Positions 7,607 to 25,866 of a stretch of DNA of 28,461 bases are shown one piece after another. The first letter of the stretch is position 1. Every line of letters begins with the position of its first letter. This DNA is from an uncultured Candidatus Saccharibacteria bacterium (GTDB taxonomy: Bacteria > Patescibacteria > Saccharimonadia > Saccharimonadales > UBA4665), in the NCBI GenBank assembly GCA_946482575.1, contig CAMLRZ010000013.1, positions 1-28,461 on the forward strand, written 5' to 3'. The notes below the pieces were generated by a model, which did no database searches, was not told the DNA's origin, and saw nothing but the letters and a program-made list of their open reading frames with translations. Made by a program: the position numbers and the translations under genes.

Positions 7607-7765
7607 ATATTAAGAACAAAATTAGTATAGCAAATTATTGGAGTAATTTCCAGTCCTAGCAGCCTGTAGTAACGAATAGGGTGGGGGGAGAACAGCGGGC
7701 AGAGGAGGCCGGGCAGCCAGTTGGCACGTGCCCGGCCTCCTTGCGTGCCACATTGACGAAGCGGA
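7607..7765 (-). terminator. GC-rich 3' hairpin of island A membrane gene
   Basis: No gene is visible in these 159 bases. They hold the tRNA promoter at the left end and a perfect 13-base inverted repeat, arms at 7703-7715 and 7729-7741 (core GGCCGGGC), with a 13-base loop. It lies 25 bases past the stop of the 7766-8158 minus-strand gene. There is no T run after it, so it may be an mRNA-stabilising 3' structure or a non-classical terminator. Confidence 0.6.
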
Positions 7766-8158
7766 CTAGACGATGGGTGCCATGTAGACCAGGAAGCCAG
7801 CGCCAGAGCCGATGCACGCGCTGATGACGAGGCCATGCTTCTTGAAGAAGCGGGCAACATCGGCGCTCAGGAGCTTGCTGGATGCAGGTTTGATGGTCGT
7901 GTTCCGGTAGCGCAACAGTACAAAGACGGCACCGAAGGCGCACAGCTCAGTAATGGCGGATACGTAGCAGAACGTGCTGGGAAACACGACGATGAACGCT
8001 ACGCAGACCATCACTTGCAGCACGGCACCCACACATGTGGCGTAAACGAAGCTGCGGCGCACAGGAAAATAGGGCGACGACATCACGTACTTGCAGGCAA
8101 CCTGCAGCCACAGCAGAAAGGCCGCGAGGCCAATCAGACGTACCGTTTCGGGACTCAT
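7766..8158 (-). CDS. GC-rich island A: small polytopic membrane protein
   Basis: A 130-residue protein with about four membrane segments (residues 5-27, 37-60, 63-82 and 110-128) and basic loops. I do not recognise the family. The start is supported by a GGGGAG Shine-Dalgarno site six to eleven bases upstream. A TACTAT box at 8207-8202 gives a leader of about 37 bases, which begins near a 6-base hairpin TTGAGC-ATA-GCTCAA (8192-8178). Third codon positions are far richer in G and C than in the neighbouring tRNA-flanking and ATPase DNA. It is divergent from the lipoprotein gene at 8334, and both belong to one compositional island between housekeeping loci. An origin by transfer is plausible but not proven. 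Confidence 0.75.
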   Translation of the reverse strand: MSPETVRLIGLAAFLLWLQVACKYVMSSPYFPVRRSFVYATCVGAVLQVMVCVAFIVVFPSTFCYVSAITELCAFGAVFVLLRYRNTTIKPASSKLLSADVARFFKKHGLVISACIGSGAGFLVYMAPIV

Positions 8159-8177
8159 TGTTCTCCCCTCAGGTGCT

Positions 8178-8310
8178 TTGAGCTATGCTCAAGACCGGGT
8201 AATAGTACAACATTTGCATGGTAATTAAAAGTACTCAAAACATTGAATTTATGGTATAATTAGCGCGTTGCAACCGCAACACTCGTCTGACTCGATCATC
8301 CGGATCGAGT
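8178..8310. promoter_or_regulatory. Divergent promoters of island A with leader hairpins
   Basis: Rightward: TATAAT at 8255-8260 within TTTATGGTATAATT (8248-8261), an element repeated exactly at the island C promoter. The predicted +1 near 8267 falls at GTTGC-AACC-GCAAC (8267-8280), a 5'-terminal stem-loop. A second hairpin, ACTCGATC/GATCGAGT (8290-8297, 8303-8310), is followed by the T-rich stretch ATTTTGTTT and could act as an attenuator. Leftward: TACTAT at 8207-8202 with a weak TTTTAA at 8230-8225 (17-base spacing), then the TTGAGC/GCTCAA hairpin at 8192-8178. Confidence 0.65.
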
Positions 8311-8333
8311 ATTTTGTTTCTCTGGGAGACCAC

Positions 8334-8798
8334 GTGAACCATTGCATTGTCCGTGCGGCTAGCGCTGCGCTGGTTGTCTTACTGGCTGCTGGCGCCACTG
8401 GTTGCCGCATCGAGCAGGACAACGCCGGCTCGTCTGGGTCGCAGCAGGAGCAGCAGGGCGCGTCCGGTTCGCTGGACTCCAAGGCCAACAAGGCCAACGA
8501 GACCTGCGCCCAGTACCGTCTGATCTACGACGACATGCAGCCCACCGACGCCGAGCGCCAGCTGACCGGCCACGACCGTACTCTGTCCAGCTACAAGAGC
8601 ATGCAGAAGTTCTACGCCGCATTCGGTCAACTCTTCCCGGAGTCCGCCACGGCTGCCAACGCGCTCAGCGACATCTACCGTCAGGCGACCCGTGGCCCGC
8701 TGCCTCCGGCAACCGAAAACAAGATCGCCGGCTACGACGACAAGATCAATGTCGTGATCGACAAGTACTGCCCCAACAGCGGCTATCCGGCCAGCTAA
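8334..8798 (+). CDS. GC-rich island A: putative lipoprotein
   Basis: A 154-residue protein beginning at a GTG preceded by GGGAGA, the only start that leaves a proper signal peptide. Residues 1-23 form a type II signal: Arg7, a hydrophobic run ALVVLLAAG, then the lipobox ATGC with Cys24 as the acylated residue. A low-complexity Ser/Gln/Gly linker (about 25-50) leads to a helical domain with one Cys near its start (TCAQY) and one near its end (KYCPN), suggesting a disulfide. Function is unknown. The layout resembles the island B protein at 19610 and the two-cysteine helical lipoproteins common in Actinobacteria. Codon use is strongly GC-ending. Confidence 0.82.
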   Translation: MNHCIVRAASAALVVLLAAGATGCRIEQDNAGSSGSQQEQQGASGSLDSKANKANETCAQYRLIYDDMQPTDAERQLTGHDRTLSSYKSMQKFYAAFGQLFPESATAANALSDIYRQATRGPLPPATENKIAGYDDKINVVIDKYCPNSGYPAS

Positions 8799-8838
8799 GT
8801 AGCGGCCCGGTCCGCAACAGAAACAGCAAGACGAGGGC

Positions 8839-8923
8839 CGGGAGGGCATGCGCGGTTTTCCGCAAAAAAGCATGTCCTCCCGAAACTCCAGAATTGTAAC
8901 ACCTCAGCAGAAGGGGTGTTTTT
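8839..8923 (+). terminator. 3' hairpin plus intrinsic terminator of island A lipoprotein
   Basis: Arms at 8839-8851 and 8870-8882 pair over 13 bases (one G-T), enclosing an inner hairpin GCGG-TTTT-CCGC (8852-8863) and a six-A bulge. A second, classical terminator follows: AACACC ... GGTGTTTTTT, at about 8898-8923. Together they give a two-step 3' end. The terminator also overlaps the upstream part of the ATPase promoter region. Confidence 0.75.
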
Positions 8924-8954
8924 TATTGCCAAAACACTTATAATAAGCACAAGC

Positions 8955-11471
8955 GTGAATAGTCAGCAAAAACATATTTATAATCTTGAAATTGAGCCAG
9001 CGCTGACGGCGTTTGAGACGTCGCGGGCTGGTATAACGTCTGAAGAGGCCAAAATCCGCCAGCAGCAATTTGGCCGCAATGAGCTTCAGGCGCAAAAAAC
9101 ATCTCTGTTAAAGCGGATTATCGAACCATTTAGCAGTGCGTTCGTATTGGTGCTGCTGGTTGCCTTAGTACTCAGCATAATTGAGCGCAAAGTTCCTGAT
9201 GCCGTGGTGATCGGTGTTATCGTTATTGTGAATGCGCTCATATATTATGTGCAGCAATTCTCTGTGTCACGAGTGCTAAAAACGCTTAAAAACCAAGATG
9301 TGGTTATGGCCAGCGTGCTGCGCGATGGTAAAACAGTGAACATTGCCAGTGAAAACCTGGTGCCAGGCGATATTTTGCATGTCGCTGAAGGTGTCAAAAT
9401 TCCAGCCGATGGTCGTTTGATAGAGGCCAGCCAGCTGCATGTGGACGAAGCCGTGCTCACAGGCGAGTCCATGCCTGTGCATAAACATGCTTCGGCCCTA
9501 GAGGGCGAACCAGCCATTTACGACCAGCAAAACATGTTGTTCAAGGGTTGCTATGTGCGCTCAGGTACTGGCCTCATGATGGTGACCGGCATCGGTAACG
9601 ACACACAATTGGGTGACATTCACACCTTGGCAAGTAGTGTGGACGCCACGCGTTCGCCAATTGAGCGCAAAATTGACAAGCTAACGCAAAAGATTATGAT
9701 CGCCACTATTGTGAGCGCGTTGATAGCGATTGCATTGGCAGTATGGCGGGGCACGACTCCCGAGGAAGCTCTGCGATTTAGCCTGTCACTGGTGGTTTCT
9801 GCTATTCCTGAGGGCTTGCCGGTTGCATTGACCATTGTGCTCTTACTGAGTGCGCGTCGTATGGCCAAAGTGCATGCCCTGGTCAAAAAAATATCTAGTA
9901 TTGAGACTATGGGTGCCATAACGCTGATTGCGACCGATAAAACAGGCACTATCACGCAGAACAAACTGAGCATTGCCGAGCAGCAAACCACGCACGGCAG
10001 CCAAAAAACCTTTGACGAAGCAATTCGGGCAAGTCTGAACGGTAGCAACGATTACGCTGGTGACACGCTGGACCAATTGCTGCACACCGCAGTTGCTCAT
10101 GTAGAATTACCCGCAGGCTGGCACAAAGCCAAAGAGATTCCGTTTAACCAAGAGCTGCGGATTAGCGGCGTATTGTGGCAACACGCGCATGGCGTTACTT
10201 TGTTTGTAAAAGGTGCGCCCGAGCGCCTGCTAGCGCTTTGCCAGAAAACGCCCAAAACCGCAATCGTTGAACAAAAACTAACTGAGTTTGCAGGCAACGG
10301 CTATCGAACTATCGCCTTTGCGCACCGCGACTTTAAGACCATGCCCTCTAAAATCGAACATGCTATTTTTCAGGACATGCACCTTGACGGTTTAGTCGGT
10401 CTGGCTGACCAGTTGCGCAGTAAGATTCCAGAGGCAATCGCCGAGGCTCGCCAGGCGGGCATTAACGTCGTGATGCTTACCGGCGACCATGTGGCTACCG
10501 CTGCACACATTGCGCAATCGGTGGGTATTGCAGAGCGACCAGAGCAGGTGGCCTCCAGCGCCGTTCTGGAGGGTGGTGATCCAAATGAAATTCGTCGCGC
10601 GCTAAAGACAACGCGTGTGTTTGCTCGCGTGCTGCCACAGCATAAATACGCCTTGCTAAAGGCCGTGCATGGATCTGAAATTACTGCCATGACTGGCGAC
10701 GGTGTAAACGATATTCCCGCATTGGTGCAGGCCGACACCGGCCTGGCTATGGGTAGCGGTACCGACGCCGCCAAGGATGCCAGTGACATTGTGCTCATGG
10801 ACGATAACTTCCGCACCATCGTGTCGGCAATAAAAGTGGGCCGCACAGCTTTGGCTAATATTCTAAAAATGTTGGTCTACCTGTTGAGCACCAGTATTGG
10901 TGAAGTAACTACTATGCTCACGGCCTTGGTTTTGGGACTGCCGCTACCGGTCACGGCTATTCAAATTTTGTGGGTTAACTTGGTAACTGATAGTCTTGTG
11001 GTTATCCCGCTTGGCTTGAGTCCGGCCGAATCACACCACATGCACCAGCCGCCCAAAGACCCCAATGCGCCATTGCTCAGCAAACGTTTGGTATCCCGAG
11101 TGATCGTTATGGCGCTTGCGGTAGCGTTCTCGGTTCTCACCGTGTTCCACCTAAACCGAGGATTGGGCGAAGAAACTGCCCGCGCGCTGGCGTTCTTGAG
11201 CTTGATTGTTATCCAGTGGGCAAACGCATTATGTGCCAACTTTGACTACAAATCCTGGGTGTACAACTTCATTCACCCCAATAAAAAACTGCTGGTGGCC
11301 ATCGCCGGCTCCATTGTCTTGCAGGTAATCATGTTTACCACCTCATTACGCGACTTTATTAACGTTGTGCCGCTACATGCCGAAAACGTCATTATAGCGA
11401 TCTTACTGCCAATTGGAGCCGCATTTGTGGCCTCTGATATCCATAAATTTATCACTCGAAAATGGCAGTAA
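8955..11471 (+). CDS. P2-type cation-transporting ATPase (Ca2+-like)
   Basis: An 838-residue membrane pump that couples ATP hydrolysis to cation export. Motifs are all intact: TGES 169-172 (actuator domain), IPEGLP 284-289 (M4 ion site), DKTGT 328-332 with the phosphorylated Asp328, KGAPE 419-423 (nucleotide binding) and TGDGVND 580-586. In M5 and M6 the residues STSIGE and WVNLVTD match the Ca2+ ATPase pattern, except that the usual Asn of SSNVGE is Ser. Ca2+ is the best guess, but Mn2+ or monovalent cations remain possible. I choose the GTG at 8955 because a TATAAT box (8939-8944) lies ten bases upstream; an upstream in-frame start overlaps the preceding terminator. Confidence 0.93.
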   Translation: MNSQQKHIYNLEIEPALTAFETSRAGITSEEAKIRQQQFGRNELQAQKTSLLKRIIEPFSSAFVLVLLVALVLSIIERKVPDAVVIGVIVIVNALIYYVQQFSVSRVLKTLKNQDVVMASVLRDGKTVNIASENLVPGDILHVAEGVKIPADGRLIEASQLHVDEAVLTGESMPVHKHASALEGEPAIYDQQNMLFKGCYVRSGTGLMMVTGIGNDTQLGDIHTLASSVDATRSPIERKIDKLTQKIMIATIVSALIAIALAVWRGTTPEEALRFSLSLVVSAIPEGLPVALTIVLLLSARRMAKVHALVKKISSIETMGAITLIATDKTGTITQNKLSIAEQQTTHGSQKTFDEAIRASLNGSNDYAGDTLDQLLHTAVAHVELPAGWHKAKEIPFNQELRISGVLWQHAHGVTLFVKGAPERLLALCQKTPKTAIVEQKLTEFAGNGYRTIAFAHRDFKTMPSKIEHAIFQDMHLDGLVGLADQLRSKIPEAIAEARQAGINVVMLTGDHVATAAHIAQSVGIAERPEQVASSAVLEGGDPNEIRRALKTTRVFARVLPQHKYALLKAVHGSEITAMTGDGVNDIPALVQADTGLAMGSGTDAAKDASDIVLMDDNFRTIVSAIKVGRTALANILKMLVYLLSTSIGEVTTMLTALVLGLPLPVTAIQILWVNLVTDSLVVIPLGLSPAESHHMHQPPKDPNAPLLSKRLVSRVIVMALAVAFSVLTVFHLNRGLGEETARALAFLSLIVIQWANALCANFDYKSWVYNFIHPNKKLLVAIAGSIVLQVIMFTTSLRDFINVVPLHAENVIIAILLPIGAAFVASDIHKFITRKWQ

Positions 11472-11474
11472 CTA

Positions 11475-11503
11475 TTGCTTTGCTCGGTTGAGCGCGGTAT
11501 AGT
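11475..11503 (+). promoter_or_regulatory. Promoter of the SAM riboswitch-metK transcript
   Basis: TTGCTT (11475-11480), a 17-base spacer and TATAGT (11498-11503). The predicted start near 11510 lies about 14 bases before the riboswitch. Confidence 0.7.
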
Positions 11504-11523
11504 AAAGAAGCTTAACAACTTAT

Positions 11524-11676
11524 AAATATACAGAGTGCAGCGAGAGATCTAGCTCGTCGACCTGCCAGCAACCTACCTTACGGTGTGGTGCTCCATCTAG
11601 CCCGCGACTATCTGCGGGGAAGATATCAGCAAGTCTTGTATCCTTTCCTGCAGAAGATTGCAGAAAGGATATTTTT
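11524..11676 (+). ncRNA. SAM-clan (SAM-I/IV type) riboswitch with terminator
   Basis: A 5' leader with the core of the SAM-I/SAM-IV riboswitch clan. The conserved CAGCAACC (11566-11573) is followed by a hairpin and GGTGTGGTGCT (11582-11592), the pattern that builds the SAM pocket. A P2-like arm pairs GCAG 537-540 with CTGC 562-565 (add 11000), with inner CGAG/CTCG; an extra 3' hairpin pairs CCCGC 11601-11605 with GCGGG 11613-11617, as in SAM-IV-like members. The expression platform is TATCCTTT (11639-11646) pairing with AAAGGATA (11664-11671) followed by TTTTT, which both terminates transcription and hides the metK Shine-Dalgarno AAAGGA. Binding of S-adenosylmethionine should lower metK expression. 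The exact Rfam subclass is uncertain. Confidence 0.85.
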
Positions 11677-12786
11677 ATGTCAAAAATAACCCAATTCGCC
11701 AGTGAATCAGTGTGTGCCGGACATCCCGACAAAATTGCTGACGCTATAAGCGATGCCATAGTTGATGCCATTTTGGCTCAGGATCCCAACGGCCGCACTG
11801 GCGTGGAAGTGCTGGTGGCGGCAGATCGCGTAGTTTTGGCCGGCGAAGTAAATACCACAGCCAGCGTGGACTTTGCGGCGGTTGCCCGCGAGCAAATTCA
11901 GCGCTTGGGCTACACTAATCCGGACTGGGACTTTAGTGACCAGTCACAAATTGAAAACTACATTCATCAGCAGTCAAGCGAGATAGCAGTGGGCGTAGAC
12001 AACGATGGCGCCGGCGATCAGGGTATGATGTTTGGTTTCGCCACCAATGAAACGCCAGAGTATTTACCGACGCCAATTGCCTTGGCACATGCTCTAACGC
12101 GAGGTCTGGATACTGCTCGCGAGCAAAAAACGCTTCCGTATTTGCGGCCAGACGGTAAAGCCCAGGTTGTAGTGAACTACGAAGATGGTAAGCCAGTGGG
12201 TATCGACCATGTAACTATCGCTATTCCGCACAACGAAGATATCCAGCTGGAACAGGTCCAAAAAGACGTGTACGAACAGATTATTCTGCCCACGCTCAAA
12301 GAGTACGGCTACGAAGTCTCGCTGGATAAGGTGATCGTGAATGGCACGGGCGTGTGGTATACGCCGGGACCTACATCGGACGCAGGTCTTACCGGTCGCA
12401 AGATTGTGGTCGACGGTTATGGTGGCTTTGCTCGAGTAGGCGGTGGCGCCTTTAGTGGCAAAGACCCCAGCAAGGTTGACCGCTCGGGCGCATACGCTGC
12501 GCGCTACATTGCCAAAAACATTGTGGCAGCTGGCCTGGCCGATGAGTGCGAAGTAGCATTGGCTTACTATATTGGCGCCAAAGAACCCGTAATGCTCACC
12601 ATTAACAGCTTTGGTACCGCCAAACAGCCCGAGGAGGCTTTGTATGCATACGCCAAGAACCTGCTTGTGCCATCGGTGAAAAACATCGTAGAGCAACTGA
12701 ATTTGCGCCGCCCCATTTACTTGCAAACCACCGCCTACGGCCACTTCGGCAAAGACGGCTTGCCGTGGGAACAGATCGCTGCGTAG
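11677..12786 (+). CDS. metK: S-adenosylmethionine synthetase
   Basis: A 369-residue cytosolic enzyme that makes S-adenosylmethionine from methionine and ATP. It opens with FASESVCAGHPDKIADAISDA (His16 and Asp18 contact ATP and metal), has the signature GAGDQGMMFG (111-120) and the second signature GGGAFSGKDPSKVDRSGAY near residues 256-274. Length is slightly shorter than the roughly 385-residue E. coli enzyme but all core motifs are present. The ATG lies eight bases after an AGGA Shine-Dalgarno that forms part of the riboswitch terminator stem, so both transcription and translation are coupled to SAM level. Confidence 0.97.
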   Translation: MSKITQFASESVCAGHPDKIADAISDAIVDAILAQDPNGRTGVEVLVAADRVVLAGEVNTTASVDFAAVAREQIQRLGYTNPDWDFSDQSQIENYIHQQSSEIAVGVDNDGAGDQGMMFGFATNETPEYLPTPIALAHALTRGLDTAREQKTLPYLRPDGKAQVVVNYEDGKPVGIDHVTIAIPHNEDIQLEQVQKDVYEQIILPTLKEYGYEVSLDKVIVNGTGVWYTPGPTSDAGLTGRKIVVDGYGGFARVGGGAFSGKDPSKVDRSGAYAARYIAKNIVAAGLADECEVALAYYIGAKEPVMLTINSFGTAKQPEEALYAYAKNLLVPSVKNIVEQLNLRRPIYLQTTAYGHFGKDGLPWEQIAA

Positions 12787-12808
12787 GCTGTAGTATACTA
12801 ATTTATAT

Positions 12809-13252: not shown

Positions 13253-13257
13253 CTCTA

Positions 13258-13287: not shown

Positions 13288-13701
13288 AATATGTGTGCAA
13301 AAGGGGTTAGGGTGAGCAGGCAGGAGGCAGGACGATGGGCTTGGAGCGCGTGAAACGCGGGTCGCAAAAGCGCATCAAGTCGCCAGGCATCTGCCTGCTC
13401 GGGTTGAGGTTGAAGGGGTGGTAGCGGCGGGTTGGACCCGGTGCCAGAGATAGCGGGGGATGAAGTTCCCTGGCACCGGGCGTATTGCGGGTGGTGCGAT
13501 TGCGCTAATCACTCGTTATGGATGGGCTTGTTGGGGGCGCGAGGACATAGTCCCTGCGGCGGACCGCGTGCACCCTGTTGTATCGGCTGTGAGACTGATT
13601 CCTGCAAAGCAGGCTCCCGGCGCGCACCGCACGGGAGACAGTCCTGGACACGAAGCAACGGCAAGCCGCCCTTCATACTGACGAGCCAGGTGGCAAGTCA
13701 T
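13288..13701 (-). ncRNA. Candidate GC-rich structured RNA (or unrecognised short gene)
   Basis: A GC-rich stretch of more than 400 bases with no convincing coding frame. On the minus strand it is bounded by a promoter (see 13707-13735) and the terminator at 13258-13287. It holds several strong paired elements: CCCGGTGCCAG/CTGGCACCGGG (13437-13447, 13470-13480; 11 bases), a long-range GAGCAGGCAG/CTGCCTGCTC (13314-13323, 13391-13400), CGCGT-GAA-ACGCG near 13347-13359, and a three-way junction in which GACTG and CAGTC enclose the hairpins CTCCCG/CGGGAG and CCTGC/GCAGG (about 13592-13642). I tested RNase P RNA and tmRNA by eye and could not match their conserved cores. A 61-residue Cys-rich frame starting at 13701 is a less likely alternative. 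Confidence 0.5.
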
Positions 13702-13706
13702 TTACT

Positions 13707-13735
13707 ACTATAAGGAGTGGCGAACAAAACCACAA
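13707..13735 (-). promoter_or_regulatory. Minus-strand promoter for the 13.3-13.7 kb RNA
   Basis: On the minus strand, TTGTGG (13735-13730), a 17-base spacer and TATAGT (13712-13707). It sits directly after the terminator of the PKD-protein gene, so it serves a separate transcript beginning near 13700. Confidence 0.6.
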
Positions 13736-13798: not shown

Positions 13799-15541
13799 TT
13801 ATTGGCCGAGGCCGAACATGCGGCGGTTGGCGAACAAGCGGTGGAAGGCTGCACCTGCAATGGTTACACCAAGGAACAGGCCGATTACCTCACCAGCACC
13901 AGTGTTTGGTAGCGTGGTAGGTGTTTCGGGAGTCTGGGGTGTAGTAGGAGTCTCAGGTGTCTGAGGGGTTTCCTTACATTCAGGTGAGTCTACTGGCAGG
14001 TTTTCCTTACCAGGAACAGTACACATTGGCTGTTCGATGGTTACGCTACCAGCACAAGCTTCAGAAGTCTTGGTGATAGTCTTGCCATTAGCGGTAGCAG
14101 TTACGCTTGCCTTAACAGTGTAGGTACCAGCCTTGGCGTAGGTGTGGTTTACAGCGCTGTCGGCGCCCGTGTAAGCAGCAGTTCCGTCACCAAAGTCTAC
14201 AGAGTAGCTGGTGATAGTTGCGTGCTGAGCAGTTGCCTTAACAACGAAGCTGTAAGCCAACTTGTTTTCGCCGTTCCGTGAGAAGATCAGTTGGTCACAA
14301 ACAACTACTGGTGTCTCAACACATTCAGGTGAGTCTACAGGTAGGTGCTCTTTACCAGGAACAGTACACATTGGCTGCTCGATAGTGATCTTAACTGCAC
14401 ATTTTGCAGAAGTTACATTCTTTTTGTCCTTGCTGCTAACAGTTACGAAAGCAGTGTAGGTACCTGGTTTTGAGTACGTGTGTGAAGCGGTTGCAGTCGT
14501 TGCGCTGGTTGGTACAGCTTTGGTGCCACCGTCGCCAAAGTCAAAGGCGTAGTCGGTGATCGTAGTGTTCTTGGCAGAAGCCTTACCAGTAAAGGTGTAG
14601 GTTTTGTCCTGCTTGGTGAACGTGAGGCTCTCACAGGTCAGAACAGCTTGAGGTGGAGCAATGGTCAGTTTAACGCTACAGTCAGGAGACGTTACGTTAG
14701 ATTTGTCCTTGCTACTAACCTTTACGGTTGCTGTGTACGTGCCAGGGGCGGCGTAGACGTGGTTAGCTTTAGCAGTTGAGCTGCTTGTAGTAACCGTTTG
14801 AGTCTTGCCATCACCAAATGCGAAGTCGTACTTAGTGATCGTAGTGTTCTTGGCAGTTGCTTTAGCGGTGAAAGCAAATGACTTGTTGTCGCTGCCGCTT
14901 GCACTGTTGAAGATCAACGAGTTACAAACCAAGCTTGCAACAGGTTTTACAGGTGGCTTTGGCGTTGCCTTAACAGCGTTACCACAGTCCACCATAATAG
15001 CGAACTTAAAGCTGCCGTCGGCGTTGAAGTATACAATTACCTTGGCTGAGCTGTGCTCAAATGAGGTAGTCGTCTTGCGAGCGTAGATGTTGCTTGTTAC
15101 ATGAGTAAAGCCTTTGCCGCCGTTAAAGCGAGCACTTACCGATGCGTCCGTTGCAACAGTTGCGCCGTCAACGCTAATGTGACCGTCCTTGTACAGCGTA
15201 CCGTACTTGGTGTTGCTGGTAGACATGCCACTTACAATAGACTTGCTGGCGCCTGCCCAGTTGTAAACAGCTTGCAGGTCAGTGTAGTCCTTTTTAACAG
15301 TCGGAGAGCTTTTGTGTCCCGACTTGTTGGTGTTGTAGTAGTCCTTGAACGAACTAATATATGCACTAGTAGAGCTACCGCTCAAACCACAGTACACGAT
15401 GTTTACTTTGTCACAGCTGGTAGCTGCGCTTACGGTGTTTGGCTGACCGATAAATTGGCTAGCCGCTGAGCCACTGACCGCGCAGAAGAAAACGACTGCA
15501 GCGAACAGAGCACCCACCTTTTTTAAAAGGTTTTTTACCAT
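13799..15541 (-). CDS. Sortase-anchored PKD-domain surface protein (LPNTG)
   Basis: A 580-residue exported protein. A signal peptide (residues 1-27, KK then a hydrophobic run, cleaved near GSAAS or at VSAAT) is followed by an N-terminal domain of unknown type (about 43-187, with four cysteines) and three PKD-like beta domains (about 203-294, 300-388 and 412-503), each with FGDG at its first loop (242, 335, 450). Two near-identical linkers CTVPGKE-LPVDSPEC (391-407 and 506-522) separate or follow them. A Pro/Thr-rich stalk leads to LPNTG (544-548), a hydrophobic span and a basic tail, a full cell-wall sorting signal. No sortase gene is in the window. The start has a strong GAGGAGGAG Shine-Dalgarno. 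A role in adhesion is inferred from the architecture. Confidence 0.93.
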   Translation of the reverse strand: MVKNLLKKVGALFAAVVFFCAVSGSAASQFIGQPNTVSAATSCDKVNIVYCGLSGSSTSAYISSFKDYYNTNKSGHKSSPTVKKDYTDLQAVYNWAGASKSIVSGMSTSNTKYGTLYKDGHISVDGATVATDASVSARFNGGKGFTHVTSNIYARKTTTSFEHSSAKVIVYFNADGSFKFAIMVDCGNAVKATPKPPVKPVASLVCNSLIFNSASGSDNKSFAFTAKATAKNTTITKYDFAFGDGKTQTVTTSSSTAKANHVYAAPGTYTATVKVSSKDKSNVTSPDCSVKLTIAPPQAVLTCESLTFTKQDKTYTFTGKASAKNTTITDYAFDFGDGGTKAVPTSATTATASHTYSKPGTYTAFVTVSSKDKKNVTSAKCAVKITIEQPMCTVPGKEHLPVDSPECVETPVVVCDQLIFSRNGENKLAYSFVVKATAQHATITSYSVDFGDGTAAYTGADSAVNHTYAKAGTYTVKASVTATANGKTITKTSEACAGSVTIEQPMCTVPGKENLPVDSPECKETPQTPETPTTPQTPETPTTLPNTGAGEVIGLFLGVTIAGAAFHRLFANRRMFGLGQ

Positions 15542-19486: not shown

Positions 19487-19604
19487 TTGACAAAACAGGG
19501 GTAATGTAGTATAGTTACCCCTCGTTACACCGTAACATCCGCTCAACAAACAAAGAGCCCAGCTCTTTTATAATTCAGCTCTAGTTCGATCACCCCGAAA
19601 CGGG
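19487..19604 (+). promoter_or_regulatory. Island B promoter with operator-like palindrome and leader hairpins
   Basis: A strong promoter: TTGACA (19487-19492), 17 bases, TATAGT (19510-19515). An inverted repeat AGGGGTAA (19497-19504) / TTACCCCT (19515-19522) brackets the -10 box, a natural repressor site. The predicted transcript starts with the small stem-loop GTTAC-ACC-GTAAC (19524-19536). A second hairpin AAAGAGC/GCTCTTT (19552-19568) is followed by a T-rich run, and CCCG-AAA-CGGG (19594-19604) partly covers the Shine-Dalgarno GGGAGG. The leader therefore offers several regulation points. Confidence 0.6.
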
Positions 19605-19609
19605 AGGAA

Positions 19610-20104
19610 ATGAACACGCACATCCTTCGACGGATTATCCTGTCCGCAGCTGCGATTATCGCACTGTTGGTCGTGGGGAGCTCCGTTGACTTCAGCAAAC
19701 TGGGATCCGACGACTCTGGCCGTAGCACCAGCGCCTACTGCGACGCTTGGCTGAACTACACCGAGTCCAGGAGCGAGGAATACAACCGCATCCTGGAGTC
19801 GGGTACCGAGGCCGAAAAGCTTCAGATGATCGCAGCCATGCCTGGCGACATCGCCGAGCTCTACGACACCGTCCACAAGGTGGCGCCGTCAGAGATCGAG
19901 CCCGACATCGCCCGAGCTGCACAGGACGCCCACGTCTTCGAGGAGCAGAATCGTCACGTTCCGACGGACGTTCTGGGCCTCGGTGCTGGGTTCCTGGAGA
20001 AGCTCTTCCAGTCTGCCAACGCGTCCACGACGCAGAAGCGCATCCACGACTGGAACGCTGCCAACTGCGAGAATCTGCAGGGAGAGAACGCCTACTTCAA
20101 CTGA
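19610..20104 (+). CDS. GC-rich island B: exported helical two-cysteine protein
   Basis: A 164-residue protein with a hydrophobic N-terminal segment (about 8-23) that acts as a signal anchor or uncleaved signal. No clear cleavage or lipobox is seen. The rest is acidic and helical, with one cysteine near the domain start (AYCDAW, about 43-48) and one near the end (ANCEN). This matches the layout of the island A lipoprotein and of many actinobacterial cell-envelope proteins. Function is unknown. GGGAGG lies four bases before the ATG. Third codon positions are strongly G/C, unlike the flanking beta-helix gene and typA. It heads a two-gene unit. Confidence 0.8.
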   Translation: MNTHILRRIILSAAAIIALLVVGSSVDFSKLGSDDSGRSTSAYCDAWLNYTESRSEEYNRILESGTEAEKLQMIAAMPGDIAELYDTVHKVAPSEIEPDIARAAQDAHVFEEQNRHVPTDVLGLGAGFLEKLFQSANASTTQKRIHDWNAANCENLQGENAYFN

Positions 20105-20165: not shown

Positions 20166-20471
20166 GTGAAGACCGCCAGAAACCTCCTCGTTTCGACACT
20201 GCTGCTCGTGCTTACGGCCATCGGCCTTCTGCATGCCAACCAGCCGGGCACCGGTGCCTACGCCGACGAGTGCGCCACTTCGACTTACATCGTGACTCAC
20301 TCGGGTGCCAGCGACCGCTTCACCTGCGCGTTCGTTCGTGTCAGCCTCGGTCGGTTCTCGACTCCCTCTTCGGAGATTCCGTCGGGATTCGTCATGCTGG
20401 GCATGCTCGGTCTGCCGATCATGACGGTCGGCGCCGGTCTGGGTGCACGTCGCCAGTACGGCAAGGAGTAG
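20166..20471 (+). CDS. GC-rich island B: small type I membrane protein
   Basis: A 101-residue protein starting at a GTG with AGGAG seven bases upstream. It has a signal peptide (about 1-33, ending GAYA-DE), an external part of about 40 residues with two cysteines (ECATS and FTCAF), then a C-terminal membrane helix (about 73-93) and the basic tail ARRQYGKE. The C-terminus looks like a sorting signal without LPxTG, so simple membrane anchoring is more likely. It follows the two-cysteine protein by 61 bases and shares its promoter and codon bias. No family is recognised. Confidence 0.78.
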   Translation: MKTARNLLVSTLLLVLTAIGLLHANQPGTGAYADECATSTYIVTHSGASDRFTCAFVRVSLGRFSTPSSEIPSGFVMLGMLGLPIMTVGAGLGARRQYGKE

Positions 20472-20515: not shown

Positions 20516-20558
20516 GTGAAGGTCGTCTTTTTTGCCATTCGGCACCGACGACCTTCAC
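20516..20558 (+). terminator. 3' hairpin of island B
   Basis: A perfect 12-base inverted repeat, GTGAAGGTCGTC (20516-20527) and GACGACCTTCAC (20547-20558), with a 19-base loop that opens with six T. It lies 45 bases past the last stop. The T run falls in the loop and not after the stem, so it is not a textbook terminator on the plus strand. Confidence 0.65.
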
Positions 20559-20593: not shown

Positions 20594-20622
20594 TTGGATA
20601 TATCTGTAACCTATGTTACAAT
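20594..20622 (+). promoter_or_regulatory. typA promoter with TGTAAC-N4-GTTACA palindrome
   Basis: TTGGAT (20594-20599), 17 bases, TACAAT (20617-20622). The palindrome TGTAACCTATGTTACA (20605-20620) overlaps the -10 box, as a repressor operator would. The leader is about 58 bases and has no clear Shine-Dalgarno near the ATG. Confidence 0.6.
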
Positions 20623-20686
20623 AAGTATAAATATCTCCCCAGGAGCAGCTGCCGGAATAAGGACCGGTCTAATACACGTATATTTT

Positions 20687-22519
20687 ATGACACCAAACAA
20701 CCAAGACCCATCCAAGATCCGTAACATCGCAATTATTGCGCACGTTGACCATGGTAAAACTACTTTGGTGGACGGCCTTTTGAAGCAGTCCAAGACCTTC
20801 CGCGATAACCAAGCCGAAATGAACCAAAGTCTGATCATGGACAGCGGCGACCAAGAAGGTGAGCGCGGCATCACCATTACCGCCAAGGTAACTGCTGTAC
20901 AGCACGATGACTACCGAATTAACATTATCGACACTCCTGGTCACGCCGACTTTTCTGGTGAGGTTGAGCGTACGCTGAACATGGCTGATGGTTGTTTGCT
21001 GATTGTGGACGCCCAAGAAGGCCCCATGCCTCAGACTAAATTCGTGTTGGGTAAGGCTCTGGCTCAAGGCCTGAAGCCAATTGTGATTATCAACAAAATT
21101 GACAAGCCAGCGCGCCGTATTCAAGAAGTAGAAAACGAACTAGCTGACCTGTTTTTGGAGTTGGCTGTTCACGAAGACCAATTGCACTATCCTGTCTATT
21201 ACGCTATTGGACGCGCAGGCAAAGCCTGGAAAGAGGCGCCTGCTGACGCTGAAGCCGATGCAAATCTAGATGTGATTTTTGACGCTATTATCAATGATAT
21301 TCCAGCACCACAGGTAGAGATGGACAAGCCTTTCCAGATGCTTGTTACAGGTCTTAGCTGGGACTCATTCAAGGGCAAGTACTGCGTCGGTCGCATTACT
21401 CGCGGCACCGTAAAGCCTGGCCAACCGGTAACACTGTGCAAAAAAGATGGCACCCAAACCAAAGCCAAAGTTGACTTGGTATTTATGAGCCATGGCGTGA
21501 CTAAATTTGAAGTTCCCGGTGGTGTTGCTGGTGATATCGTTCAGCTGACTGGTATTGCTGATGCTAAAATCGGCGAGACCATTGCTGACGCCGACCAACC
21601 CGAGGCATTGCCCGTTATGGAAGTTGAAGCCCCAACCTTGCGCATCTACCTCGGTCCAAACACCAGCCCATTCAAGGGCACCGAGGGTGAATTTACTACT
21701 AGCCGCCAAATTGGTGATCGTCTGCAAAAAGAGCTGGAAACCAACGTTGGTTTGCGTGTGGAAGAAGACGGCATTGGCTTTACTGTAGCCGGCCGCGGTG
21801 AACTGCACCTTTCTGTTTTGATCGAGACCATGCGCCGCGAAGGCTTTGAGTTTGAAGTGGGCCGCCCCCAGGTTGTGACCAAAGAAGAAAACGGCCAAGT
21901 TGTTGAGCCGCTGGAAGAAGTTATTATCGAGGTGCCCGCCGAACACGTAGGTACCGTGCAAATGGAGCTCGGCCAACGCCGCGCAACCCTCAAAGAACAG
22001 TTCTCTAGCCCTAAAGGCGTGACTAAATTAGTGTACGAAATGCCTACCCGTGCTTTGCTCGGTATGCGCAACATTCTGATGACCAACACCAAGGGTACGA
22101 TCATCATGAACAGCCTGACCATTGGCTACCAGCCACAAGGCGCAGCGCTGCAACAGCTACGTAATGGCGTGTTGATTGCCTTTGAAACCGGTACTACAAC
22201 TCCATACGCCCTGCAAAATGCCGAAGCACGCGGTACTACATTTGTGGGTGCTGCCGAAAAGGTATACGCTGGTGAAATCGTTGGCCTTAACACTCGACAA
22301 GAAGACATGGAAATTAACGTCTGCAAGACGAAGCACCTGACCAACATGCGCTCATCAAGCAGCGATGGTGTGGTGCAGTTAACGCCGCCAACTATTCTTA
22401 GCCTGGAACAGTGCCTGGACTTTATTGAAAACGACGAGCTTTTGGAGGTTACGCCAAAGGCGTTGCGACTCCGCAAGCGCGAACTCGACCCTAACAAGCG
22501 TAAGCGAAACAACAAGTAG
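20687..22519 (+). CDS. typA: Translational GTPase TypA/BipA
   Basis: A 610-residue ribosome-binding GTPase that supports 50S assembly and growth under stress, close to the usual 605-615 residues. G1 is AHVDHGKTT (18-26), the switch II G3 DTPGH (82-86) and G4 NKID (136-139). Later domains include GRGELHLSVLIETMRREGFEFEVGRP in part and the typical C-terminal run with LTPPTILSLEQ. The start is set at 20687, just before the GTPase core; an in-frame extension upstream to 20516 runs through the island B hairpin and the promoter and is not real. It is followed at 23 bases by an unknown gene on the same strand. Confidence 0.97.
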   Translation: MTPNNQDPSKIRNIAIIAHVDHGKTTLVDGLLKQSKTFRDNQAEMNQSLIMDSGDQEGERGITITAKVTAVQHDDYRINIIDTPGHADFSGEVERTLNMADGCLLIVDAQEGPMPQTKFVLGKALAQGLKPIVIINKIDKPARRIQEVENELADLFLELAVHEDQLHYPVYYAIGRAGKAWKEAPADAEADANLDVIFDAIINDIPAPQVEMDKPFQMLVTGLSWDSFKGKYCVGRITRGTVKPGQPVTLCKKDGTQTKAKVDLVFMSHGVTKFEVPGGVAGDIVQLTGIADAKIGETIADADQPEALPVMEVEAPTLRIYLGPNTSPFKGTEGEFTTSRQIGDRLQKELETNVGLRVEEDGIGFTVAGRGELHLSVLIETMRREGFEFEVGRPQVVTKEENGQVVEPLEEVIIEVPAEHVGTVQMELGQRRATLKEQFSSPKGVTKLVYEMPTRALLGMRNILMTNTKGTIIMNSLTIGYQPQGAALQQLRNGVLIAFETGTTTPYALQNAEARGTTFVGAAEKVYAGEIVGLNTRQEDMEINVCKTKHLTNMRSSSSDGVVQLTPPTILSLEQCLDFIENDELLEVTPKALRLRKRELDPNKRKRNNK

Positions 22520-22542
22520 CACGGTGGGCGCAGGAGAGGAAC

Positions 22543-23124
22543 ATGACGGAACGATTTGAAAGCCCTTACGACAATCCCCATGTGCCTCCGCAAAAATTCC
22601 TAATAGCTGCCTTAGCTTCTCATCTTTCGCCTCACAACAATTTAGTACGTGTGGTGTGGGGCCAAACACCTTCGCGATTGGTTGGCGGCGATGCCAAAAT
22701 GCTTACCACCCAGGAAAAGGTGAATAAGTATGGCGTGACGTTGTCGTGCGATGCTTGGATGGATCCGCAGGCTCCATCTTATAGCGACGAGCCAATGTAT
22801 GACGTGCATCTTATTGGGCGCGGTAACATACAAGACACCGTTATGCGGTATGCTGTGTGTCGGGACGCCACCTATTTGGCACAGCCAATGGGCCGCCTAA
22901 CAGTTGAAAAGTTTACCAGCCGCGTAGACGATCGTATTGTAGGTAATTTATCACGCCTATTGCAGGGAGCTCGCTTTAGTGATCGTTCCACGGATGGGGC
23001 CTATGACTACATGAGCGCGTGGGGCGTGATGGAAGCAGACGGCGCTAATGATGAACTCTATCCTGACATCGCTCACTACCCATACATGGACCAGTTTTAT
23101 CAGGAAACTGGCGGTCAAGAGTAG
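22543..23124 (+). CDS. Hypothetical soluble protein downstream of typA
   Basis: A 193-residue protein with no recognised family, no signal peptide and no membrane segment. It is acidic at its C-terminus (several DY/DE and Tyr-rich turns) and contains two cysteines. GGAGAGGAA lies directly before the ATG. With only 23 bases after the typA stop and no promoter in between, it is probably translated from the typA transcript. I cannot assign a function. Confidence 0.8.
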   Translation: MTERFESPYDNPHVPPQKFLIAALASHLSPHNNLVRVVWGQTPSRLVGGDAKMLTTQEKVNKYGVTLSCDAWMDPQAPSYSDEPMYDVHLIGRGNIQDTVMRYAVCRDATYLAQPMGRLTVEKFTSRVDDRIVGNLSRLLQGARFSDRSTDGAYDYMSAWGVMEADGANDELYPDIAHYPYMDQFYQETGGQE

Positions 23125-23156
23125 TTTAAATTGCACAAAGCCCGTACAATAGCGGT

Positions 23157-23525
23157 ATGTTTACTGTAACTGACGACGAGTTTGCCGATCTTATTGCTCA
23201 GGCACTCACAACGCTTTCCAAAGATCACCAAGCTGCAATCCAAAATGTGGCAATTACCTATGCCGACGATCCCACGCCCGAACAGCGTGTGCAGCTTCAG
23301 CTGCGCGGCGACCAAACATTATTTGGCTTATACGAGGGCGTTCCCCTGGCTGAGCGCCAAGGCATGACATCGTATGGGCCAGATCGGATCACTATATTTA
23401 AGAATCCGATCCAGGAGTGGTCGCAGGACTTGGCCTCGCTACGAGAGCAAATCCGTCATACTGTCTGGCATGAAGTGGCCCACTATTTTGGCCTGAATCA
23501 CGCGCAAATTCACGAATTGGAATAG
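23157..23525 (+). CDS. Zincin-like metallopeptidase family protein
   Basis: A 122-residue minimal zincin (Pfam 'zincin_1'-type family). The motif HEVAHYFGLNHAQIHELE fits HExxHxxGxxH: His105, Glu106, His109 and His115 should bind and use zinc. The upstream DRITIFKNPI strand is typical. Members are cytosolic and mostly uncharacterised. A TACAAT box (23145-23150) is exactly six bases from the ATG, predicting a leaderless mRNA. It ends one base before the next gene, with which it forms an operon. Confidence 0.92.
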   Translation: MFTVTDDEFADLIAQALTTLSKDHQAAIQNVAITYADDPTPEQRVQLQLRGDQTLFGLYEGVPLAERQGMTSYGPDRITIFKNPIQEWSQDLASLREQIRHTVWHEVAHYFGLNHAQIHELE

Positions 23526-23526
23526 C

Positions 23527-24096
23527 ATGGACAAAATCCTCACAATTGCAGTGCTTGCTGGCACCAAGCGCGAAAACGGTCACTCAATGAAGGCTGCGCG
23601 CTATGTGGCGGAATTTGGCCGCCAGCTGCCCGGTGTGGAAATCATTTTTGTGGATCCCAGTGATTTTAGCTTTCCCGGGGACGGTAACGATCCCCAGGGT
23701 AAAGATCCGCGCTATACCCAAACTACTGCCAAGGCCGACGCGTTCTTTATAGTTTCCCCCGAATACAATCACAGTTTTCCGGGCACATTAAAGCGCATGC
23801 TGGACAGCGAATTGGAAAATTATTATCACAAACCGGTTGCTTTGGCCGGCGCAAGCAATGGCGCGTGGGGCGGCGTGCGGTGTGTGGAGGCGCTCACAAC
23901 TACTGTGCGCGAGATGGGCTTGGCGGTAACGTCGTGGAGTGTGTATTTTCCTCGTGTCCACGAAATGTTTGATGAGTCAGGTGCATTGCTGCCCGAATAC
24001 AAAGAGCGCACCGAGCAAAATGTGGGTGATGCCTACAAAGAACTTATTTGGATGGCCAAAACGCTCAAATGGGGGCGAACTAATCTAGCTGTGTAA
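23527..24096 (+). CDS. NAD(P)H-dependent FMN reductase
   Basis: A 189-residue flavodoxin-fold reductase of the NADPH-dependent FMN/quinone/azo reductase type. Signs are the phosphate-binding N-terminal loop AVLAGTKRENGHS (8-20), SPEYNHSFPGTLKRMLD (about 77-93) and ALAGASNGAWGG (about 105-116). It should reduce FMN, quinones or azo compounds with NAD(P)H in the cytosol. It starts one base after the zincin stop and has no Shine-Dalgarno, so it relies on coupling to the upstream gene. Confidence 0.93.
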   Translation: MDKILTIAVLAGTKRENGHSMKAARYVAEFGRQLPGVEIIFVDPSDFSFPGDGNDPQGKDPRYTQTTAKADAFFIVSPEYNHSFPGTLKRMLDSELENYYHKPVALAGASNGAWGGVRCVEALTTTVREMGLAVTSWSVYFPRVHEMFDESGALLPEYKERTEQNVGDAYKELIWMAKTLKWGRTNLAV

Positions 24097-24097
24097 T

Positions 24098-24147
24098 CTT
24101 TACTACTTGCATGTGGGCTTTTTGGAGCCAAGGTGTAAATAGTAAAG
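24098..24147 (+). terminator. Imperfect hairpin after the FMN reductase
   Basis: CTTTACTA (24098-24105) pairs with TAGTAAAG (24140-24147), with partial pairing inside and a GGCT/AGCC-type tip. There is no T run, so termination is only suggested by position. Confidence 0.4.
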
Positions 24148-24177
24148 GGGTGGTGCATTGAGAAGGAGGACTGAGCG

Positions 24178-24223
24178 GGCGGACGGCAGTGACTGCCACA
24201 GTGTGGAGCCACCGCCGTCCGCC
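24178..24223 (-). terminator. GC-rich 3' hairpin of island C
   Basis: GGCGGACGGC (24178-24187) and GCCGTCCGCC (24214-24223), a perfect 10-base stem, with an inner GGCAGT/ACTGCC. It lies 16 bases past the stop of the minus-strand island C gene and lacks a T run, like the island A minus-strand hairpin. Confidence 0.6.
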
Positions 24224-24239
24224 GCGCCGCGTCGGTTGT

Positions 24240-25346
24240 TCAGAGGAGGAACATCAGGTCGATGAGCGTCAGCACGGCAGAGCCGATGATGCTTCCGATG
24301 ACCCAGATGATCTGGTGGGCGTGAGCCTCGTCGCGTGCGAATTGAGGGTCCTCAACGGTGCGACTGGCTGCCACACTGCCCACGAAGCATGCTCCCAGCG
24401 TCAGGTTGAGGCTGGCGAGCAAGGCGATCCCCACACTCAGGACCGGGTTGAAGTCGGTGTGCTGGTCGAGCAGCATGAGGAGGGTGATCAGGGTGATCAC
24501 ACCGGTGCCACAGCCAGTGACCATGAGGGCCCAGCGCTGTGCCAGTGTGTACCACCAGTAGGGGCGGGAGTCGTTGTTGATGAACGGTGCGGCCACGGAA
24601 CCGGTGGGTTCGTCGTCTCCGTTCTCGGACTGGGCGTCCGACTCGGGGAGTTTGGTCAGGCCCGAACCGGGAGCGGTCTCCTGGATTTGCGGCGCCTGCT
24701 CCGGTTGCATCGCCCATGCGGGCGCGGTGTACTCGCGAAGCTCTTTTCCGTGGTGGGCCAGAAAGGCCTTGACCTCGTCGTAGGGGTAGGCGTATTCGCC
24801 GATGACCAGGTACTGACCGCCGCCGGTCAGCTGGTACAGTTGCACCTCCTCACCGCGGTCCAGCTCCCAGTATTCGTCGGTCACCACCCTGACGGAGGTC
24901 AGGCTTTCGGTGGCGTGTCGGGGGAGCTGCTTGAGCACGATGTGCTCGGCGACCAGCGCGAGGTGATAGCGGACGTCGGACCCATAGTGGTCGACGATCA
25001 GGGTGACCTCCTCCAGATCGCTGGTGCTGAGGTCCAGCGCGGCGGGAAGCTCGGGTTGGGGCTCGGACGGTTCGGTCTGGTCGGTGTCGATCATCGCTGT
25101 CTCCTGGTTGCTCGCGAACGGGTTGACGCGGATGTTGAGCGACTGAGCGCCGGGGCAGGTGACCGCATGGTCCAATGCAGCCTTGACGAAGTCGAAGTGG
25201 TACGGGTTGCCGTTGATCTTGATTGTCGGCTCGGTCCACTTCTGGTCGCGGGCATTGTCGCAGGTGCTGAAGTGCAGCATGGCAGCGGCCATCATCCCTG
25301 CGTCCACGGCGCTTTGGACCGGCCGGTGAGGCGTGTTTTCGTTCAC
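24240..25346 (-). CDS. GC-rich island C: large membrane-anchored protein, unknown
   Basis: About 368 residues from a GTG at 25346 (a GTG at 25355 is also possible; neither has a strong ribosome site). The N-terminal 250 residues are soluble and acidic, with an inner Pro/Glu-rich stretch (about 88-100) and a second Pro/Gln-rich linker (about 190-235). The C-terminus has about three membrane spans (about 258-282, 290-315 and 340-366) and ends LMFLL. An internal ATG at 25094 (residue 85) has a perfect AGGAG six bases upstream, so a 284-residue form may also be made. Strong G/C third positions persist across both parts in one frame, so the gene is continuous. No family is recognised. Confidence 0.7.
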   Translation of the reverse strand: MNENTPHRPVQSAVDAGMMAAAMLHFSTCDNARDQKWTEPTIKINGNPYHFDFVKAALDHAVTCPGAQSLNIRVNPFASNQETAMIDTDQTEPSEPQPELPAALDLSTSDLEEVTLIVDHYGSDVRYHLALVAEHIVLKQLPRHATESLTSVRVVTDEYWELDRGEEVQLYQLTGGGQYLVIGEYAYPYDEVKAFLAHHGKELREYTAPAWAMQPEQAPQIQETAPGSGLTKLPESDAQSENGDDEPTGSVAAPFINNDSRPYWWYTLAQRWALMVTGCGTGVITLITLLMLLDQHTDFNPVLSVGIALLASLNLTLGACFVGSVAASRTVEDPQFARDEAHAHQIIWVIGSIIGSAVLTLIDLMFLL

Positions 25347-25372
25347 GATGTGCACACTTTCTGTGAGGGAGG

Positions 25373-25699
25373 TCAGCCGTGCAGGGTGGCCAAGTGGTTG
25401 GCGATTCCAAGCACGATGTCTACCGCCGCGACACTCCACAGCCAGCCACGAAGCTCGCCGGTTGCGTCCGGGAGCATGTAGGGGGCGGGGTAGCGCCGGT
25501 AGGTCTGGGTCATGATCAGGGCGAACATGATGACCGTGACCATGACGATCAACGAAACGGGGAGCACTGCCGACCACACGAATGTGATCAGTGTTCCCAC
25601 GAAGGCGAAGGCGAGGTACACAGCACCGAACAACATCAATGCACTTGCCACGAAGGCAAACACACGGGCGCTGTTGCGGGCGATCTGGCGAGTAGCCAT
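25373..25699 (-). CDS. GC-rich island C: small membrane protein
   Basis: A 108-residue protein with about three membrane segments (about 13-36, 38-63 and 86-104) and a short polar loop with QTYRRYPAPYMLPD. AAGGA lies six bases before the ATG at 25699. It is the first gene of a two-gene minus-strand unit; the large membrane protein begins about 26 bases after its stop. Codon use is GC-ending. The pair probably works at the membrane together, which is inference from the operon only. Confidence 0.75.
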   Translation of the reverse strand: MATRQIARNSARVFAFVASALMLFGAVYLAFAFVGTLITFVWSAVLPVSLIVMVTVIMFALIMTQTYRRYPAPYMLPDATGELRGWLWSVAAVDIVLGIANHLATLHG

Positions 25700-25727
25700 G
25701 GGTTTTCCTTGAATGGTTGACGGGTGA

Positions 25728-25866
25728 AAGGTGTTGCAATGAACGTACCACTGCGTGCTGCGGCCGTTGCAACACCTTAGTCAACTCCTTCTCAATGTCA
25801 AAATACATATCCCAACAACCGTTGAAATAACCAAACAATTATACCATAAAAAGTCATAAAACACAA
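25728..25866 (-). promoter_or_regulatory. Island C promoter and leader hairpin
   Basis: On the minus strand, TTGTGT (25866-25861), 17 bases, TATAAT (25843-25838). The -10 region lies in TTTATGGTATAATT (25850-25837), identical over 14 bases to the island A promoter. The leader is about 130 bases and holds a perfect 12-base inverted repeat, arms 25728-25739 and 25767-25778 (AAGGTGTTGCAA and its complement), with a 27-base loop. The octamer GTTGCAAC in this arm also occurs at the start of the island A leader. Confidence 0.65.

Follow-up and report, generated by a model that had tools for sequence, protein, structure and literature searches.

How do small genes with a composition of their own come to stand as separate units between the housekeeping genes of a bacterial chromosome? 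This question is raised by three GC-rich islands, A (genes A1 and A2), B (B1 and B2) and C (C1 and C2), in a stretch of 28,461 nucleotides (nt) of contig CAMLRZ010000013.1, which was analysed as a whole and is called the window here. The window is placed by its sequence in Saccharimonadota, and its TypA protein shares 87% identity with the one encoded by Candidatus Saccharibacteria bacterium YM_S32_TM7_50_20. We conclude that the islands are probably autonomous expression cassettes of one or two genes that came from a foreign high-GC source and entered a Saccharimonadota chromosome between its native transcription units. Four direct observations underlie this conclusion: the composition, the transcription-unit anatomy, a recurring class of such genes, and filled and empty sites within the taxonomic order of one relative.

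A total of 30 window genes, six in the islands and 24 elsewhere, were scored for GC3, the fraction of G or C at third codon positions. The island genes lie at 0.76-0.84 and the 24 others at 0.40-0.61, so the GC-rich islands proposed in the initial annotation are real. Overall GC is 0.586, 0.585 and 0.611 in islands A, B and C versus 0.504 elsewhere in the window, and the GC-richest segments of the same lengths outside them reach only 0.552, 0.554 and 0.540. The islands lie in a chromosomal housekeeping context, and the limits drawn for them in the initial annotation coincide with promoters and hairpins, that is, with functional-looking ends. Island A extends from the 3' hairpin of A1 (7704-7740) to the 3' hairpin of A2 (8840-8881), island B from a -35 box (19487) to the 3' hairpin of B2 (20516-20558), and island C from the 3' hairpin of C1 (24178-24223) to just above an extended -10 promoter (25838-25848). 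The features are as follows, with protein lengths in amino acids (aa) and z denoting the fold score against dinucleotide shuffles, which for the A1 hairpin was calculated over 90 nt past the stop codon.

7704..7740, minus strand: 3' hairpin of the A1 unit, 37 nt, T run absent, z -4.22
7766..8158, minus strand: A1 gene, 130 aa, four hydrophobic segments, GC3 0.76, nothing above the Pfam cut-off
8198..8212, minus strand: weak -10-like stretch TACTAT upstream of A1, a candidate promoter judged from sequence
8250..8260, plus strand: predicted extended -10 promoter of A2, TATGGTATAAT
8290..8310, plus strand: leader hairpin of A2, leader z -2.46
8334..8798, plus strand: A2 gene, 154 aa, GTG start, TAA stop, three invariant cysteines, probably exported, GC3 0.82
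8840..8881, plus strand: 3' hairpin of A2, outer stem 12 bp, z -5.42
19487..19515, plus strand: promoter-like TTGACA-17-TATAGT of the B1-B2 unit
19610..20104, plus strand: B1 gene, 164 aa, N-terminal hydrophobic segment and predicted helical bundle, Cys44 and Cys153 invariant, GC3 0.79
20166..20471, plus strand: B2 gene, 101 aa, GTG start, hydrophobic segment at both ends, GC3 0.78, no Pfam family
20516..20558, plus strand: 3' hairpin of the B unit, stem 12 bp, z -5.35
24178..24223, minus strand: 3' hairpin of the C unit, stem of about 17 bp, z -6.70
24240..25346, minus strand: C1 gene, 368 aa, GTG start, GC3 0.84 (layout from hydropathy scan and alignment)
25373..25699, minus strand: C2 gene, first gene of the C unit, hydrophobic protein of 108 aa, GC3 0.80
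25728..25778, minus strand: leader hairpin of the C unit, inverted repeat, z -2.82
25838..25848, minus strand: predicted extended -10 promoter of the C unit, TATGGTATAAT

The hairpins that end the island units thus have z from -4.2 to -6.7, and the earlier suggestion of self-contained transcription agrees with the predicted limits. The promoters and terminators are predictions from sequence; A1 has a weak promoter, and a T run is missing from several 3' hairpins. Five of the 24 other genes have z below -2 at the 3' end, the lowest value (-5.92) belonging to a PKD-domain gene. No known RNA family was found by Rfam in islands A, B and C, and none of the six island proteins scored above the Pfam cut-off, consistent with the earlier remark that they belong to no recognised family. 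A simple hydropathy scan counted four hydrophobic segments in A1, one N-terminal segment each in A2 and B1, two in B2, three C-terminal ones in C1 and, at the cut used, one in C2. The claim that all six products are membrane or exported proteins is therefore upheld as far as hydrophobic segments go, and its detail that A2 is a lipoprotein is doubtful.

Genes of this kind recur in relatives. A gene was assigned to the class when its GC3 was at least 0.15 over the local median and it fitted a GC-rich codon model better; hairpin and promoter features were kept out of the calling. The model was trained on the six window genes and on 22 genes of one relative, G393, that had been called with an earlier model, and is partly circular; the earlier model was built from 11 sequences, two of which (genes 2 and 3 of locus L065) were out of frame. 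In the parts of the genomes read, class members amount to 30 of 330 called genes in G353, 25 of 327 in G393 (one likely false positive) and 5 of 155 in G147, 60 in all. The control relative G001 (400 kb) has none among 316 genes, and no gene there attains a GC3 of 0.70. The GC3 distribution is bimodal. When 80 loci were chosen by typA alone, those with fewer than four long open reading frames being skipped, nine class genes (one doubtful) were found in five loci among 1069 genes called, window included. Two cases above the cut, L018 and G393 257766, were not counted as cassettes, and a cassette-like stretch in L004 (16900-17553) falls below it.

The anatomy seen in the window is also that of the class. 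We compared 62 class genes (29 from G353, 24 from G393, five from G147 and four from the window) with 400 native genes; two of the 64 called genes were lost to length and contig-edge rules, and the window contributes only four, since gene calling overlooked B2 and C2 and extended C1 too far. Among the class genes 95% are followed by a 3' hairpin below -20 kcal/mol, versus 24% of the native ones, a near-consensus promoter (score of at least 11) precedes 44% versus 10%, and TGA is the stop codon in 34 of 62 versus 67 of 400. With shuffle control, the 3' z is below -2 in 87% of the 62 class genes versus 15% of 150 native genes, and a structured leader (z below -2) is present in 42% versus 10%. 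Hydrophobic segments occur in 50% of the class genes versus 38% of the native genes, and the window, with envelope proteins as all of its six island products, therefore shows a mild excess and not a rule.

The islands are scattered, 45 of them in the contigs read with the window included. The nearest gene upstream of typA is a class member in 4 of 74 loci, again counting the window. In locus L065, three GC-rich genes stand in tandem immediately upstream of typA; their leaders are repeated, and so are 3' elements between neighbours. Further GC-rich genes are found in L045, L047 and L004. In G393, three GC-rich genes stand between rpsJ and rplC (genes named by eye) and one cassette stands between fusA and tuf. 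This last site was compared across 15 tuf loci in G393's order: nine are empty, with a gap of 136-168 bp and a visible tuf promoter, five are filled, and one has no adjacent fusA. The filled gap measures 650 bp in G393 and 987, 1019, 1261 and 1398 bp in the four others, which hold two or three small genes each with promoter-like and hairpin sequences (by eye). The genes in the gap have GC3 of 0.59-0.61 in G403 (tuf 0.49) and of 0.32-0.46 in G431, G422 and G424 (tuf 0.27-0.32). The latter three have a related first gene (E 4e-37 to 1.4e-4), whereas a related second gene is confined to G431 and G424 (E 5e-19). This gradient looks like the ageing expected of insertions at one hotspot; a lower-GC source also fits. 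Transfer RNA genes were considered as insertion targets and rejected, since they are not enriched (7 of 45 islands versus 35 of 288 native gaps). In the fusA-tuf gaps of L214, L218 and L219, a conserved motif of some 60 nt, probably structured, precedes the start codon in the leader of the first cassette; Rfam gave nothing above its cut-off in the fusA-tuf loci, one match lying far below its cut-off with E 0.36.

The proteins A2, B1 and C1 belong to families that are real but rare. Among 5.8 billion proteins, seven relatives of A2 were found at 54-93%, and, besides the window proteins, eight of B1 at 50-66% and eight of C1 at 41-89%. No member of these families has a precomputed Pfam domain, and the only organism named among them is Candidatus Saccharimonadales bacterium (P0018, a B1 relative). 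The B1 cluster is present on 12 contigs. Its longest contig and that of the C1 relative P0003 are both 97,888 bp, and the longest contigs of P0018 and of the C1 relative P0008 are both 809,595 bp. Such equal lengths suggest that B1 and C1 relatives lie on the same contigs; it seems that other genomes of the order have B and C together and that the islands are no one-off accidents.

C1 consists of a conserved N-terminal domain, a swappable middle domain, a variable linker and a C-terminus with the three hydrophobic segments. Over the segments 18-95, 98-205, 206-262 and 263-368, identities are 97, 36, 95 and 98% between P0003 and P0004, 97, 91, 59 and 39% between P0006 and P0009, and 100, 100, 55 and 93% between the window protein and P0002. 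By these alignments C1 is a domain-swapping mosaic, with exchange of the middle domain, of the linker and of the membrane segment. Polymorphic, modular surface or immunity proteins evolve in this mode, and the C1 alleles resemble them in exchanging these parts. C1 differs in that it has no Pfam family and no structural match, its model being poor (mean predicted local distance difference test score, pLDDT, 53.7) with the middle domain as the sole confidently modelled part. The B1 model is moderate (71.6) and displays an N-terminal helix followed by a helical bundle. Neither model matched the PDB at E 0.001 or better. The B1 family alignment reveals the invariant Cys44 and Cys153, and that of A2 reveals Cys24, Cys58 and Cys146. 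The lipobox consensus has G, A or S ahead of the lipid-bearing cysteine. Of eight A2 sequences, the window protein and the two nearest to it have G before Cys24 and the other five have E or K there, which misfits a lipobox; A2 is more likely a plain exported protein with three invariant cysteines.

At the level of genomes, C1 was searched in one genome, 93 of the family, 392 of the order and 392 of the class (draws overlap), B1 in 17 genomes of G393's order and 392 of G001's order, and A2 in 392; none of these three proteins was matched convincingly in the 392 genomes of the order, where A1, B2 and C2 were not searched. The only matches from these searches, E 0.0018-0.0082 in six genomes, were treated as chance. 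With tblastn at 1e-3 against the 80 Saccharimonadota typA loci, none of the six island proteins and 14 of their 24 neighbours were matched, and the DNA of islands A, B and C matched nothing in these loci and the long contigs. That relatives lack these units is thus supported for all six proteins in the 80 loci and for A2, B1 and C1 in the 392 genomes.

In 63 cassette proteins of the wider class, 19 families were matched with one member each, so at least 44 of the proteins are without family. The single members include DUF475, C-C bond lyase, TerD, cytidylate kinase, guanylate kinase, GNAT, fatty acid desaturase, CDP-alcohol phosphatidyltransferase, alpha/beta hydrolase and AIG2-like proteins, and CHAP and LGFP occur together in one G393 protein. 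From the initial idea of modular surface-protein cassettes we retain the modular units and their distinct composition; the surface theme is not general, given cassettes resembling cytoplasmic enzymes such as cytidylate kinase, guanylate kinase and GNAT. A GC-rich group in G353 (C5:51630-55274) joins C-C bond lyase, DUF475 and TerD genes and resembles a tellurite-resistance-type cluster. The cytidylate kinase-like protein at L097:5715-6380 (minus strand) reads GAGTGTTS, with T in place of the expected P-loop lysine, and is perhaps no ordinary kinase. A match to the type III hammerhead ribozyme at L083:6567-6621 (minus strand) adjoins the 3' side of a GC-rich cassette gene in G393; it scores 38.7 bits, under the gathering score of 48.5, with E 7.5e-7 for the 601 bases searched and a core complete by eye.

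Some adjoining cassettes share ends while their proteins are unlike. In L045, two neighbours share a 3' element (91% over 85 nt) and their proteins give E 0.088 only; cassettes 1 and 2 of L065 have 116 nt in common at 78% with proteins at E 0.43. The leader box common to the three L065 cassettes recurs ahead of the cytidylate kinase gene. That the L065 and L045 tandems are paralogues was not borne out by blastp. The shared ends would reflect either very fast protein divergence after duplication or an exchange of genes between conserved ends.

Several points weigh against foreign cassettes inserted into a native chromosome. Neither a donor nor a recombinase nor a shared end sequence came to light. 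No empty site could be identified for the window's islands, the closest of the 80 typA loci reaching only 87% in TypA, and the lower GC3 of the other fusA-tuf genes could also reflect a different source and not age. G393, G353 and G147 were picked for typA loci already holding GC-rich genes. The relatives of A2, B1 and C1 are known as proteins only, without GC3. Moreover, a comparison among 60 cassette proteins (the sequence of L065_3 being out of frame) matched only tandem neighbours and gave no family common to genomes, and of 64 cassette proteins only two found a match elsewhere, the DUF475 protein and the likely false positive.

As to the source, the initial annotation called transfer from an actinobacterial host attractive but speculative. 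Direct transfer of host genes, by competence or exchange linked to a type IV secretion system (T4SS), is an unlikely origin. Cassette codon usage is alike across four genomes (r 0.88-0.97) and unlike native genes (r at most 0.60), which is largely GC-driven. It correlates with that of one Rhodococcus plasmid, the only actinobacterial yardstick, at 0.87-0.94, and nearly equally with that of a Saccharibacterium of GC 0.60 (0.84-0.90). A donor call from codon usage was therefore rejected because GC confounds the correlation, and host transfer stays unproven. The CHAP and LGFP protein of G393 speaks for it, LGFP being mainly an actinobacterial repeat. On the other side, no actinobacterial homologue was identified among the seven or eight relatives each of A2, B1 and C1, whose sole named organism belongs to Saccharimonadales, and the Cmk and Gmk cassettes have no clear actinobacterial affinity among the PDB matches listed. 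The missing T run was also dropped as an actinobacterial sign, because runs of at least four T lie downstream of 56% of cassettes and 45% of native genes. In one Saccharibacterial relative of G353 (TypA 87%), the 200 kb read (G363:C2:600001-800000) have GC near 0.60; such a genome could be a reservoir.

Horizontal acquisition itself is known in Patescibacteria, where, according to one report, it reaches up to 13% of genome length and genes are exchanged (PMC12455944). Another describes a monoderm-type T4SS, mostly without relaxase (PMC12102498). Given these reports, transfer routes are conceivable. The cassettes resemble the genomic islands and individually transferred genes of the former paper in being horizontal acquisitions; the sections of it consulted describe neither single-gene units with promoter and 3' hairpin nor uniform high-GC codon usage (PMC12455944).

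An origin as cargo of Saccharibacterial phages, satellites or plasmids, the cassettes being true morons whose vectors decayed or recombined away, carries the same low probability as host transfer. Phage morons, as portrayed in one paper, are single genes between conserved genes, with their own promoter and terminator, deviant GC and shared hotspots (PMC2920897), and the cassettes are like them in all these traits, promoter and terminator being predicted here. The G393 cassette between fusA and tuf lies between genes adjacent in relatives (9 of 15 loci empty), and cassette GC is unlike the surroundings, lying above them; in one Burkholderia phage group it lies below, according to the same paper (PMC2920897). 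Nine PHROG families were matched in the 63 cassette proteins, with one member each, among them gamma-glutamyl cyclotransferase, guanylate kinase and endolysin. The cassettes differ from morons in being chromosomal, even between fusA and tuf. In IMG/VR neither C1 nor B1 nor the Gmk cassette has a relative, 50,697 phage records contain none for C1, and no phage genes were seen beside the window islands, whose neighbours were not scanned against PHROGs. With this chromosomal setting and no relatives of C1 and B1 on viral contigs, we regard the cassettes as working like morons and do not class them as such. Plasmid matches of two ter-like proteins of G353 have below 60% identity (34-37% among the matches listed), come mostly from Proteobacteria and are uninformative about the donor.

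Somewhat less probable is a shared circulating Saccharimonadota pool of single-gene high-GC cassettes with a fixed architecture (strong promoter, structured leader, 3' hairpin), loaded by machinery that can exchange the gene between conserved ends and keeping host-like codons because the genes took shape in high-GC partner bacteria or for expression there. If true, it would give the candidate phyla radiation an integron-like means of innovation with no integron involved. A dedicated integron-like loading system of Saccharimonadota is a shade more doubtful still. The adjoining cassettes with common non-coding ends and dissimilar proteins (L045, L065) and the recurring leader box favour it, and tandem duplication with very fast protein divergence would explain the former too. 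Integron gene cassettes are likewise small, diverse and mostly unknown genes with a structured 3' end, and neighbours have similar non-coding ends. The cassettes described here differ in having their own promoters and in lying at scattered sites (45 islands), not in a promoterless array beside intI. No integron integrase above the TIGR02249 cut-off was found in any of six related genomes, nor in 14 controls, so the search lacked a positive control; only weaker, probably Xer-like matches were present. As to an attC site, the 3' end is structured, but k-mer enrichment at cassette ends gave only promoter-like, Shine-Dalgarno-like and GC-rich k-mers, without a motif common to genomes.

That the cassettes are native genes with codons optimised for high expression is very improbable. 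Their strong promoters would fit, as would their marked preference for C in two-fold codons, which EF-Tu of G393 partly shares. However, EF-Tu and EF-G of G393 have GC3 of only 0.50 and 0.54, and high expression therefore does not explain the cassette codons; ribosomal-protein genes (named by eye) have 0.37-0.65, GC3 is bimodal, and the A2, B1 and C1 families have no convincing match in the 392 genomes of the order. An assembly chimaera with GC-rich DNA, imaginable for a window that is likely metagenomic, is hardly credible, as the same pattern occurs in separately deposited genomes, the B1 cluster is on 12 contigs and the borders run from promoter to hairpin.

We return to autonomous cassettes of foreign high-GC origin, for which we infer horizontal entry, expression, ageing and diversifying pressure as follows. 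Each cassette would bring a promoter of its own, for which A1 has just a weak candidate, together with a leader, one or two GC3-rich genes and a strong 3' hairpin. With promoter and hairpin of its own, it could be expressed wherever it landed without joining a native operon, and the incoming gene might thus survive anywhere in a compact genome. Cassettes would arrive singly or in short runs, with upstream of typA and between fusA and tuf as putative preferred sites, and probably drift to native composition over time. They would act as phage morons do, within a cellular chromosome. In the window their products are predicted envelope proteins, and the swapped domains of C1 suggest that related copies exchange parts under diversifying pressure. 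Selection for autonomy, and not a dedicated machine, may be enough to explain the cassettes.

Among the open-licence PMC papers listed by literature searches, none was on such cassettes, and they suggest an undescribed way of gene uptake in reduced genomes. Saccharibacteria, whose genomes are reduced, live mostly on other bacteria; the genes that they take up and keep are telling. Three Saccharimonadota carry 5-30 GC-rich stand-alone genes each in the parts read, and the control relative none. If the conclusion is true, the signature of GC3 jump, own promoter and 3' hairpin would list recent acquisitions in any such genome and yield candidate envelope and host-interaction genes, and donor and insertion mechanism would become directly testable.

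Three further features of the window lie outside the islands. About 420 GC-rich bases between two genes (13296-13716) hold no convincing gene; their fold mildly beats shuffles (z -1.48), and they match nothing in Rfam, the 80 typA loci and the long contigs. A riboswitch for S-adenosylmethionine (11523-11629, 49.7 bits) lies directly upstream of an S-adenosylmethionine synthetase gene. The PKD-domain gene with the strong 3' hairpin mentioned above (13799-15541) has native codon usage and encodes a surface protein, whose C-terminus carries an LPNTG-like sorting motif.

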